From positions 124,001 through 188,000 of the forward strand of contig NZ_QKNY01000018.1 in NCBI RefSeq assembly GCF_003605575.1: a stretch of DNA of 64,000 nt, written 5' to 3'. This DNA is from Halonotius aquaticus (GTDB lineage Archaea > Halobacteriota > Halobacteria > Halobacteriales > Haloferacaceae). Below, in pieces: positions 57,504-61,267 of this stretch. The notes beneath the pieces are model-generated. The model did no database searches. It saw only the letters and a list, made by a program, of their open reading frames with translations, and was not told the origin of the DNA. A program made the translations under genes and the position numbers. Within the stretch, counting starts at the first letter, position 1; each line of letters starts with the position of its first letter.

Positions 57504-57653
57504 TCGGCGTAGGCTACCGGACACCGCCTAAAAGGGGTTTCCTTTCGACCCGCCTAATCGGTGGCGCTATCGCCACCGACCACCACCGGGTGCGGGGCGG
57601 CTGCTGTCGAAACGGACGCTGTTAAGTGCGTACCGCAGCGAGTATCGACAACA

Positions 57654-59105
57654 ATGAGCCCTGGTGTGACCGGCTCCTCACGGTCGACCTACGCGATCCT
57701 TGGCTGTGGCAGCGTTGGCCACGCCGTCGCCGAGGATCTTGCCGAGGCGGATAACGACGTGCTCATCCTCGATAAGGACGCCGACCGGGTTGAGGCCCTG
57801 CGCGATCAGGATCTCAACGCGACGGTACAAGACATCAGCGAGCCCTCGGTCGCCGAGGCGGTCGCCGACCGCGATATCCTGCTGGTGTTGGCCTCCGATA
57901 TCGAGGCAAACAAGGCGGCGGTCGCGGCGATCCGAGAGGCCGGCGGCGATCAGTACATCGTCGTTCGAGCCTCCGATCCCGTCAGCCAAGACGAGCTCAG
58001 CGAGCTCGGGGCGGATATCGTTGTCAACCCCTCGGAGGTGATCGCCGACTCCGCGCTGCGCAGCCTCGAATCCGGCGAACTCCAGTATAAGGCCCGGCAA
58101 CTCGCCGATATCCTCGAATCGACGGAGGGCCGGCTGGCGATTCTCACACAGGACAGCCCTGATCCCGATTCGATCGCCAGTGCGACCGCGCTGCAGGCGA
58201 TCGCCGCCGAGTTCGGCGTCGAGGCCGACATCCGCTATGAGGGCGATATCGGCCACCAAGAGAACCGCGCATTCGTCAACCTGCTTGGGATCGAACTGCT
58301 GGCCAGCGACGACGAGCCCGCAATCGAGGAGTACGACCGAATCGCCCTCGTCGATAACGTCCAGTCCGGCAGCGACGACCCGGCCTTCGAGATCGATATT
58401 CTCATCGACCACTACGAACCCGACGAGGAGGTCGACGCCCCCTTCGTCGACGTGCGGACAAACCTCTCCTCGACGTCGACGATCCTCACCAAATATCTCC
58501 AGGAGTTCGATCTCGGCCCCAGCGAGACGGTTGCTACCGCCCTGCTGTATGGGATTCGGGCGGAAACACTGGATTTCAAGCGAGATACGACACCCGCGGA
58601 TCTGACCGCCGCCGCCTACCTCCACCCCTTCGCCAACCACGACACCCTCGAACAGGTCGAGTCGCCGTCGATGTCGCCGGAGACGCTGGATGTGCTGGCC
58701 GAGGCGATCCAGAGCCGCGAGGTACAGGGCAGTCATCTGTTTTCGACAGCCGGCTTTATCCGCGATCGGGATGCCTTAGAGCAGGCCGCCCAGTATCTGT
58801 TGGATCTGGAAGGGATCACTACCAGCGCGGTCTTTGGGATCGTCGACGAGAAGATCATCGTTGCCGCCCGCTCGAAGGATATCCGGATCGATATCGGCAG
58901 CGTCCTTGAGGGCGCCTTCGAAAACAGCGGCGATATTATCGGCCACTCCACCCAGGGCAGCGTCGAGGTACCGTTGGGGATCTTCACCGGCATCGAGGCC
59001 AGCGAAGACAACCGCGAGACGCTGCTGGAGTTGACCGAGGAAGCTGTCAGAAAGAAGCTCTTTGCGGCGCTGGGCGTCGAAGGCAGCGATACAAACGGGT
59101 CTTAG
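57654..59105 (+). CDS. RCK(TrkA_N)-DHH-DHHA1 phosphoesterase
   Basis: A 483-residue protein. Residues 1-130 are an NAD-binding RCK domain (A-I-L-G-C-G-S-V-G, acidic D-K-D at the end of strand 2). A DHH phosphoesterase core follows: S-P-D-P-D-S-I-A-S near 168-176, L-V-D-N near 232 and the DHH position reading D-H-Y at 252-254, then a DHHA1 domain with G-S-V-E-V-P-L near 450. The family is proposed to cut cyclic or linear nucleotides such as c-di-AMP or pApA. Tyr replaces the last His of the name motif. ATG 57654 gives the family N-terminus. Confidence 0.88.
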   Translation: MSPGVTGSSRSTYAILGCGSVGHAVAEDLAEADNDVLILDKDADRVEALRDQDLNATVQDISEPSVAEAVADRDILLVLASDIEANKAAVAAIREAGGDQYIVVRASDPVSQDELSELGADIVVNPSEVIADSALRSLESGELQYKARQLADILESTEGRLAILTQDSPDPDSIASATALQAIAAEFGVEADIRYEGDIGHQENRAFVNLLGIELLASDDEPAIEEYDRIALVDNVQSGSDDPAFEIDILIDHYEPDEEVDAPFVDVRTNLSSTSTILTKYLQEFDLGPSETVATALLYGIRAETLDFKRDTTPADLTAAAYLHPFANHDTLEQVESPSMSPETLDVLAEAIQSREVQGSHLFSTAGFIRDRDALEQAAQYLLDLEGITTSAVFGIVDEKIIVAARSKDIRIDIGSVLEGAFENSGDIIGHSTQGSVEVPLGIFTGIEASEDNRETLLELTEEAVRKKLFAALGVEGSDTNGS

Positions 59106-59392
59106 GCGACGGCTTCGTCGGTCTCGTCGGTCTCTTGGAGGCGTTCGATCGTGCTGTTGACGAGGACAACGTCGCCGACGGCTCGTACCCACCGATAGGG
59201 GATCAACACACCCTTGCCGGGGCCGACAGTGTCGGCAAACAGTTCGTCGTTGAGTTCGCCGACCGCCAGACTCGTGACCGATTCGGCATCCAAGTTCAGC
59301 TGTACGTCCTCGATCTCGCCGACAAACACACCATTGTTCGAGTAAACCTCGCGGCCGACGAGCGTCGTGATCTCTTGGGGAGTCCCGTCCAT
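59102..59392 (-). CDS. PRC-barrel domain protein
   Basis: A 96-residue protein. L-V-G-R-E-V-Y-S-N-N-G-V-F-V-G-E-I-E-D-V near residues 10-30 is the PRC-barrel opening, and V-L-I-P-Y-R-W-V-R-A-V-G-D-V-V-L-V near residues 60-78 is its last strand. Archaeal single-PRC proteins act in RNA or cell-division machinery (CdpB-like), but which one this is cannot be told here. Its stop overlaps that of the convergent RCK-DHH gene by four bases. Confidence 0.8.
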   Translation of the reverse strand: MDGTPQEITTLVGREVYSNNGVFVGEIEDVQLNLDAESVTSLAVGELNDELFADTVGPGKGVLIPYRWVRAVGDVVLVNSTIERLQETDETDEAVA

Positions 59393-59506: not shown

Positions 59507-60310
59507 TTACCGCAGCATCGATTCCTCGCCGTCAAGTTCGGTCAGCGGGAGGGGCGTCGACTCTCCGCGCCAGTGATCGAGGCGGCTGTTGGCCCACGAG
59601 ACGGCGTCGTCGCCGCTGTTGCGGATCAGCGCGCGGCCGCCACTGTCGTCGATCACCAGCAAGCCGGCCGTCGATCCCATGGGGCGGTCGACGACGACAA
59701 GGCCGTGGGACGGCGTTGTATCGAGCAAGCGAAGGTCGGCACCGGCCTCCTGGAGTGCAGCCAGGGAGTCGGGGTAGGTGTCGACGAGTGCCGACACGAC
59801 CGAATCGGTGACGACGATCTCAACGGTCTCCGTGTTGTCGGTCGCCAACGTGCAGGCTTCGATCAGCTGTGGGAACACCGCCGGACAAAGAATGCGGATC
59901 GACTGGGCCTCACCCAGCAGCGCGCAAAGCGCGGAGATCGGCTGATGGGGCGTCGCCTGCGTGGCGGTGATGATCGTCGCATCATCAAGCATTGACCGAT
60001 CGATCTGCTGGGTTGGCGGGAGTTCAGCAAAGACATCGCCCGCCGAGAGCAGTTCGGCCGTCTGAGCTTTGAATCGGTAATACTCCGAGAGTAACAGTTC
60101 GCCGAGGAGCGTCCGCCGGTAGCCCTCCGGCGATCGGGTCACGAGGCCAGCGGCTTCGAGATCACGGATGCTTCGATCGACAGTCGAGCGTGAGGGTGGT
60201 ACCGCCTCGACGATATCGCGTTTCTCACAGCCGGCGACATCGACAGCGTACAACACCGACTCCCGCTGAATAAGCGTCGATAACACATCGGATGGGTCAG
60301 TGGCAACCAT
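59507..60310 (-). CDS. HTH transcriptional regulator with C-terminal sensor domain
   Basis: A 267-residue DNA-binding protein. The N-terminus forms a winged helix (about residues 10-60: R-D-I-V-E-A-V-P-P-S-R-S-T-V-D-R-S-I-R-D-L, then L-V-T-R-S-P-E-G-Y). The rest is a DUF1724/TrmB-like effector domain with L-V-T-D-S-V-V-S and R-L-L-D-T-T-P-S-H-G-L-V-V-V-D. Such haloarchaeal regulators often control their own or a neighbour's gene. A perfect 12-bp palindrome sits before its start. ATG 60310 is the family-like start. Confidence 0.8.
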   Translation of the reverse strand: MVATDPSDVLSTLIQRESVLYAVDVAGCEKRDIVEAVPPSRSTVDRSIRDLEAAGLVTRSPEGYRRTLLGELLLSEYYRFKAQTAELLSAGDVFAELPPTQQIDRSMLDDATIITATQATPHQPISALCALLGEAQSIRILCPAVFPQLIEACTLATDNTETVEIVVTDSVVSALVDTYPDSLAALQEAGADLRLLDTTPSHGLVVVDRPMGSTAGLLVIDDSGGRALIRNSGDDAVSWANSRLDHWRGESTPLPLTELDGEESMLR

Positions 60311-60344: not shown

Positions 60345-60466
60345 AACAACCGTGATATATTTAAACGTTCGTCACGCGGCGACGCGTTCGTGCAGACGGT
60401 GATGTAAAGCTATACCCCACTAACACAGTAATTGCCGGAGTGCCTCTGACAACCCGGCGATCCTGT

Positions 60467-60556
60467 CGGTCGCCCTGCCCGGACGACCGCGTTATGCTTG
60501 TCGACCCTGCCCGGATCGACAGGCTGCACCGGCCGACTTGCCCGGGTCGGCTTGGT
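60467..60556 (+). repeat. Three tandem stem-loops with shared loop sequence (candidate structured RNA or phased DNA sites)
   Basis: Hairpin 1: CGGTCG/CGACCG (60467-60472, 60484-60489) around CCCTGCCCGGA. Hairpin 2: TGTCGA/TCGACA (60499-60504, 60516-60521) around the identical CCCTGCCCGGA, extendable by a T-G and two G-C pairs. Hairpin 3: GCCGAC/GTCGGC (60532-60537, 60546-60551) around TTGCCCGG. Loop cores repeat every 31-32 bases. Stems differ but still pair, and the wobble pairs work only for plus-strand RNA. A TATA-like box at 60356-60365 with no gene behind it could drive it. The rest of 60366-60466 and 60557-60664 holds no gene I can defend. Confidence 0.6.
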
Positions 60557-60664
60557 ACTGTCACGCTGGCTGCCAGTTGGCGGCCGCACGACACTTTTCA
60601 ACAACCCACCAGTAACATCGATGTCGCCTGTAGTTCTTTACGGCTGGCGGTTCACTGACGTGAC

Positions 60665-61267
60665 ATGAGTCAGACTGACGCTGACGCGACTGTGAGTATC
60701 GTTGGCGGCGGCCCCGCCGGTCTGAGTGCCGCACTGTTTACCCAGAAAAACGGCCTCCAGACCCGCGTTTTCGACACTGACGGAACGTGGATGCACAAAG
60801 CCCACCTCTTCAACTATCTCGGCGTTGGCTCCCAGGACGGCACGGCGTTCATGGAGACCGCCCGCCGACAGGTCGATAGCTTCGGCGTCGAGCGACACCA
60901 AGGCGAGGAGGTCACGGACGTGACCGCGACAGACGACGCTTTCAGCCTCGAAACCGCCGAGGGCAGCTACGACGCCGACTACGTCGTGTTGGCGACGGGT
61001 GCCAACCGCGATCTCGCCGAGTCACTGGGCTGTGCCTTCAACGGCGATGTCGTCGATGTCGGCGTCGACATGGAAACCAGCGTCAACGACGCCTACGCGA
61101 CCGGCGCGATGGTACGCGCCGAAGAATGGCAAGCAGTCATCTCAGCCGGTGACGGCGCGGCCGCCGCGCTCAACATCCTCTCGAAGGAGAAAGGCGAACA
61201 CTTCCACGACTTCGACGTGCCCGCTGACGCCGATGGCGTCTTCGGTGCGATGAGCGACGAGGCGTAG
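60665..61267 (+). CDS. Short FAD-dependent oxidoreductase (thioredoxin-reductase-like fold)
   Basis: A 200-residue protein. The FAD-binding G-G-G-P-A-G is at residues 14-19, the second dinucleotide stretch V-V-L-A-T-G-A near 105, and a C-terminal V-D-M-E-T-S-V-N-D-A-Y-A-T-G matches the last strand-helix of the thioredoxin-reductase FAD domain. The NADPH domain and its redox C-x-x-C are absent, so it is a half-size relative rather than a reductase. ATG 60665 is about 28 bases after a TATA-like TTCTTTACGG, and the repeat hairpins lie upstream of that promoter. Confidence 0.82.
   Translation: MSQTDADATVSIVGGGPAGLSAALFTQKNGLQTRVFDTDGTWMHKAHLFNYLGVGSQDGTAFMETARRQVDSFGVERHQGEEVTDVTATDDAFSLETAEGSYDADYVVLATGANRDLAESLGCAFNGDVVDVGVDMETSVNDAYATGAMVRAEEWQAVISAGDGAAAALNILSKEKGEHFHDFDVPADADGVFGAMSDEA

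Follow-up and report, generated by a model that had tools for sequence, protein, structure and literature searches.

A putative small RNA gene of haloarchaea with conserved complementarity to the start codon of rosR

The analysed window, a 64-kb stretch of Halonotius aquaticus DNA, holds three consecutive hairpins with a common loop core and differing stems between a divergent HTH regulator gene and a FAD gene, and the question raised by this locus is what such an array does. An earlier note on this DNA had proposed a structured plus-strand small RNA (sRNA) or riboregulator of the FAD gene, or else a set of phased protein-binding sites. The analysis points to a small RNA gene, uncatalogued before and found in many salt-loving archaea, of which the array would form the middle part.

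59507-60310, minus strand: divergent HTH regulator gene with FilR1_middle and HVO_A0261_N domains, the commonest neighbour of the RNA; functional link putative
About 60434-60600, plus strand: predicted RNA gene as a whole, with the hairpin array as its middle part
60467-60489, plus strand: hairpin H1, CGGTCG (60467-60472), loop CCCTGCCCGGA (60473-60483), CGACCG (60484-60489); covarying stem
60499-60521, plus strand: hairpin H2, TGTCGA (60499-60504), loop CCCTGCCCGGA (60505-60515), TCGACA (60516-60521); covarying stem
60532-60551, plus strand: hairpin H3, GCCGAC (60532-60537), loop TTGCCCGG (60538-60545), GTCGGC (60546-60551); covarying stem

The three consecutive hairpins with differing, pairing stems were confirmed at these positions, as was the spacing of 32 and 31 between their loop cores (at 60476, 60508 and 60539). 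Within the window CCTGCCCGG was found just twice, both copies lying in the array. The folding energy of 60440-60580 was unremarkable taken alone (z -1.5); for 60434-60600, the RNA boundaries found later, z was -2.7 and 1 of 200 shuffles was equally stable. In relatives, a stem of at least 5 bp was present at 94 of the 107 distinct TGCCCG[GA] sites 3' of a 5' stem-loop described below (mean 8.6 bp), compared with 36 of 254 control sites of this motif elsewhere in those loci (mean 3.1), and swapping arms between the TGCCCG[GA] hairpins left a stem of this length at a mean of 46 and a maximum of 58 of the 107. Individual copies carried 0-3 TGCCCGG/TGCCCGA hairpins, mostly 1, with varying stems and the loop core kept. 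Covarying RNA secondary structure was found in the 5' stem-loop and in the TGCCCG[GA] hairpins alike, which supports the proposed structured sRNA on the plus strand, with stem covariation about a constant loop. Phased DNA-binding sites are unsupported, because hairpin number varies and spacing is not kept among relatives.

The intergenic region was used for a DNA search of 60 related genomes, which returned conserved copies whose best-conserved part starts upstream of the array. The most conserved piece of the RNA is a 5' stem-loop, P1, which lies 5' of the array and was absent from the earlier account.

60399-60409, plus strand: GTGATGTAAAG box, predicted core promoter (BRE and TATA-like element, about -35 to -25)
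60434-60458, plus strand: P1, 5' stem-loop GCCGG-A-GTGCCTCTGACA-AC-CCGGC; its first G is the probable transcription start
60440-60451, plus strand: seed GTGCCTCTGACA, the 12-nt P1 loop, exact complement of the rosR start TGTCAGAGGCAC
60568-60598, plus strand: terminator-like hairpin GGCTGCC-AGTT-GGCGGCC, then TTTT at 60595-60598

P1 follows the pattern GCCGG-R-GTGCCTCTGACA-N(1-2)-CCGGC in relatives, with compensatory stem changes to GTCGG/CCGAC (L012, L020) and GCTGG/CCAGC (L106). The spacing from the GTGATGTAAAG box to the 5' stem is constant in relatives, with no indels. When 61 distinct upstream regions were aligned on the P1 stem, the A/T fraction was 0.79-0.98 at -29 to -26, positions -11/-10 were A/T-rich, and the initiator consisted of a pyrimidine at -1 and G at +1. 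This promoter and initiator profile places the start of the RNA probably at 60434 rather than at about 60388, as had been suggested. The promoter-like box noted before at 60356-60365 (TATATTTAAA) is present and lies upstream of the predicted 60399-60409 promoter; some Halobellus loci without the divergent HTH gene have no TATATTTAAA-type box but retain the -28 box. The GTGANNTAAAG box was first taken for a box-C motif or mini-ORF, a reading given up in view of the promoter profile. At the 3' end, relatives (L002-L007) have a comparable GGCTRCC..GGYGGCCG hairpin and T-run, and a terminator-like hairpin with a T-run is present downstream of the TGCCCG[GA] hairpins in many copies. As sequence features, the promoter/initiator profile and the terminator-like hairpin fit a free-standing transcription unit.

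The exact P1 pattern was found at 54 loci in a collection of 85,000 species (one genome per prokaryote species), all of them haloarchaeal and including Haloferax, Halobellus, Halogeometricum, Haloquadratum, Natrialba, Natronococcus, Halorarius and Halovivax. Of 392 haloarchaeal genomes, 117 gave a match to a covariance model of the RNA; a single match was the rule, and several Haloferax genomes had 2-4 copies each. The architecture shared by these 117 genomes is the 5' stem-loop, then mostly 1-3 TGCCCGG/A hairpins, then the terminator-like hairpin. The covariance models of Rfam 15 gave no relevant match at gathering or permissive thresholds, and viral contigs held no exact copy of the RNA.

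The 12-nt loop of P1 is a perfect complement of the rosR mRNA start AUGUCAGAGGCAC. Its reverse complement TGTCAGAGGCAC has exactly one further site in the Halonotius aquaticus genome, at the gene start ATGTCAGAGGCAC, and TGTCAGAGGCAC occurs at the same orthologous gene start in three other genera. The product of this gene matches the hsRosR structures in the PDB (6ez1, 6qfd); RosR is a PadR-type regulator of the oxidative-stress response in Halobacterium that contains no cysteines, its oxidant sensing being unexplained (PMC4287449). A TATA box stands about 22-30 nt before the ATG, from which the rosR mRNA is probably leaderless or nearly so. The seed-rosR duplex has a predicted energy of -24.1 kcal/mol; the lowest value for any of 335 other ATG windows in the 64-kb stretch was -19.1.

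The test of the target in 392 genomes followed its post hoc observation in 4. The 13-mer ATGTCAGAGGCAC was present in 338 of the 392 haloarchaeal genomes and its reversed control, counted by hand, in 18. Codon statistics were taken from 41 genomes, mostly selected for carrying the RNA: codon 2 of rosR was TCA in 41/41, although just 4 of the 102 other Ser codons were TCA; GCA stood at codon 4 in 39/40, as against 49 of 208 other Ala codons. At 27 other degenerate invariant positions the commonest codon averaged 0.66. Such frozen rare codons indicate that the nucleotide sequence itself is constrained at the rosR start. Many rosR starts (L223-L246) also carry a palindrome, TGACAT-N10-ATGTCA, that spans the start codon, is possibly the operator of another regulator and could add a DNA-level constraint there.

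The seed was present in 283 of 392 haloarchaeal genomes (reversed control about 101, hand count), where sites followed by T were not counted, so that rosR starts were left out. Of the 338 genomes that have the target 273 had the seed, as did 10 of the 54 that lack the target (hand counts; Fisher p 5e-19, not corrected for phylogeny), and the exact target was present in 115 of the 117 genomes having the model-defined RNA (hand counts). The target occurs without an exact seed in 65 of 338 genomes, and in g83, g79 and some relatives pairing is lost at the 5' end of the seed.

Changes on the two sides tend to match in particular lineages. In genus g3 the target ends in GGCAG and the RNA loop has CTGCC, a compensatory change at the outermost pair; in genome G118 the target reads GAGTCAC and is matched by a candidate hairpin (L291, loop GTGACTCTGACA, GTGACTC) of putative orthology to the RNA; and in G259 the target has changed to GGCGC with a G-U wobble pair preserved. 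Within genus g6, 11 genomes have both RNA and target, and the two that lack the RNA also lack the target (G077, ATGACGGAAGTTC; G090, ATGGCAGAAGTAC). The target is changed in G038, G099 and G382 too, where a matching RNA was looked for and not found. Complementarity to an mRNA encoded elsewhere is thus conserved, with covariation in two lineages and with co-loss, and comparison gives good support to the predicted pairing of the seed with rosR.

Because the 5' loop is an exact 12-base complement of the rosR mRNA start, the RNA probably controls the amount of RosR. We consider it likely that a trans-acting sRNA reduces RosR synthesis by pairing across the start codon of a nearly leaderless rosR mRNA. 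The sRNA, of about 165 nt, would be transcribed independently from 60434 to near the T-run at 60595-60598. Its 5' hairpin would display the 12-nt seed GUGCCUCUGACA, which would pair with the rosR mRNA from the U and G of the start codon through codons 2-5. Covering the start codon of a probably leaderless mRNA has a block of initiation as its simplest outcome, by which start-codon recognition, and with it RosR synthesis, would be reduced and the RosR regulon tuned. The TGCCCGG loops may serve as a second conserved contact surface, with further targets, a GGGCA slightly downstream in some rosR mRNAs, or a protein as possible partners. YGGGCA was found at +14 to +60 of rosR in 15 of 41 genomes, compared with 0-6 of 41 in later stretches; pairing of this second loop with rosR is suggestive and is not claimed, as the encoded Gly-Ile segment could explain the motif and most genomes have no such site.

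The same evidence of seed-target pairing would apply if the RNA stabilised or activated the rosR mRNA, or if an abundant mRNA titrated the RNA in a reciprocal effect. Archaeal sRNAs that stabilise mRNAs are known, a precedent being sRNA154 of Methanosarcina as cited in PMC13286277. With the mRNA probably leaderless, stable pairing at its start codon is nevertheless expected to prevent initiation, and we regard an effect of this kind as unlikely. It is rather improbable that the TGCCCGG loops carry the main activity of the RNA, whether by luring away an RNA-binding protein as a decoy or by acting on many mRNAs, with the rosR match secondary: the core is conserved in 107 hairpins whose stems change, but the hairpins number 0-3 and mostly 1, the loops are absent or altered in some copies, and the nearly invariant part is the seed, which tracks the target across genomes. 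We hold it quite improbable that GTGCCTCTGACA is a DNA site of a regulator, such as RosR itself, at the starts of rosR and of the RNA gene, with no RNA-RNA pairing involved. Both sites do lie near transcription starts, and the TGACAT-N10-ATGTCA palindrome shares TGACA with the seed; the seed, however, is not a dyad, the stem whose loop holds it varies with the lineage (P1; CCAAATCG/CGATTTTGG in genus g12; GCATGCCG in G118), and the published RosR site of H. salinarum, TCGnCGACGAGnTCGnCGAC (PMC4287449), is unrelated to it. The palindrome is likewise unlike that published site.

A leader or riboregulator of the FAD gene, which starts at 60665 in the same direction, is extremely unlikely and was dropped, since that gene adjoins the element in just 4 of 54 named loci (the FilR1-type HTH gene does so in 29), the next gene elsewhere is different or convergent, and the terminator-like hairpin and T-run stand before it. 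The element is probably a free-standing gene and not a FAD leader. Genes for a TrkA_N-DHH protein and a PRC-barrel protein (57561-59392 of the window) adjoin the HTH-RNA pair, a position that the former keeps in 20 of the 54 named loci and the latter in 15.

The proposed start-codon pairing can be set beside known RNAs. Bacterial trans-acting sRNAs pair at translation starts, and multi-hairpin examples with C-rich loops include 6C RNA, cuckoo/CcsR-type RNAs and the staphylococcal UCCC-loop RNAs. Like these, the putative rosR-pairing RNA would be a free-standing gene, and it has a seed in a hairpin loop, repeated hairpins with a fixed C-rich loop and its own terminator-like hairpin; unlike them it is archaeal, unrelated in sequence and without an Rfam match, and its seed would cover the AUG of a probably leaderless mRNA rather than a Shine-Dalgarno site. 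RNAs of the CsrB/RsmY type sequester a protein, CsrA, which binds their many repeated GGA hairpins. Repeated hairpins with a common loop and differing stems are shared with them, but the loop here is TGCCCGG and the most conserved part is another hairpin, P1; in place of many GGA hairpins, 0-3 TGCCCG[GA] hairpins were found, mostly 1. CsrA is reported absent from H. volcanii (PMC6104027).

Haloferax copies lie between a DUF123 gene and the FilR1-type gene, near lactate genes, in the order DUF123 gene, RNA, FilR1-type gene, aminotransferase, SRPBCC, HVO_1697-like and HVO_1696-like genes, from which the copy of Haloferax volcanii is predicted to lie near HVO_1697. The literature was searched and no paper naming an sRNA near HVO_1697 was found. 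From the same species, rancRNA_s194 (97 nt, minus-strand chromosomal gene, reported near HVO_2011) is described as conserved in Haloferax only, with short reads ending in C-stretches (PMC6104027). It resembles the Haloferax copies in size (97 nt and about 95 nt) and as a minus-strand chromosomal gene, but its HVO_2011 neighbourhood is not the expected HVO_1697 one and read ends in C-stretches do not fit; by reported neighbourhood and read pattern, identity with rancRNA_s194 seems less likely. Another Haloferax volcanii sRNA, SHOxi, is tied to oxidative stress; PMC12482152, citing Gelsinger 2021, gives it as 254 nt, encoded on plasmid pHV3 and targeting malic enzyme mRNA. Compared by that description, the two have in common a haloarchaeal host, base pairing and a tie to oxidative stress, probable for the rosR-pairing RNA, and differ in that the Haloferax copies lie in another neighbourhood and have rosR as their predicted target.

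The seed also occurs in other settings. Genera g12 and g14, mostly missed by the model, carry a different conserved RNA candidate with the same seed, held in g12 by the loop of a CCAAATCG/CGATTTTGG stem, with a C-rich hairpin coming next (g12/g14 type with a CCCCCC loop). A further conserved seed context, CTGTGCCTCTGACAACCGGGGCGGTC...CCGCCCTG, in family f17 (L356-L362) looks like another scaffold, and L272 in G062 is a minimal candidate, a single hairpin CGGTCGG-TGTGCCTCTGACAAACACG-TCCGACCG with the seed in its loop and a T-run after it. The same seed in differing scaffolds (P1, g12/g14, f17) makes the pairing appear older than the RNA scaffolds.

Paralogues in the genus Haloferax (L105-L113, L139, L140, L144, L146, L183) have GCCGGGGTGCCTCTGACANNAAACRCCGGC followed by hairpins such as AACCGAGATGCCCGCTCGGTT; there are several per genome in scattered neighbourhoods, and in several of them TTTAATA or TTATAC stands about 30 nt upstream, at the position matching the -28 promoter box. 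In genus g41 (G238, G048, G161, G247; L353, L354, L369), G238 has 33 occurrences of the seed GTGCCTCTGACA[A/C/G], and G048 and G161 have 14 apiece; G048 has 16 RosR-like matches, and the g41 seeds are found near RosR paralogues, as though the sRNA had multiplied together with the regulator. Several genomes of genus g46 carry seed pairs in opposite orientation exactly 155 bp apart (L351, L352), and the pair in G179 has a rosR-like start next to it.

Seed pairs of genus g46: G179:C4:32305/32460, G133:C4:6234/6389, G146:C70:9201/9356, G212:C5, G234:C13, G096:C4

To our knowledge, few archaeal sRNAs have a known target, and RNA control of leaderless archaeal mRNAs is poorly known. The comparisons made here suggest that a widespread family of sRNAs has a single specific target with which it covaries, namely the start codon of rosR, the gene of a master regulator of oxidative stress, and whether the RNA sets the RosR level becomes directly testable in the genetically tractable Haloferax. 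The chances seem to us evenly balanced that an old pairing between GUGCCUCUGACA and the rosR AUG region persists in most haloarchaea, that the RNA surrounding the seed was meanwhile rebuilt several times, and that in some genomes (g41) it multiplied with RosR paralogues. If true, this would amount to class-wide sRNA control of a master stress regulator by start-codon occlusion of a leaderless mRNA.
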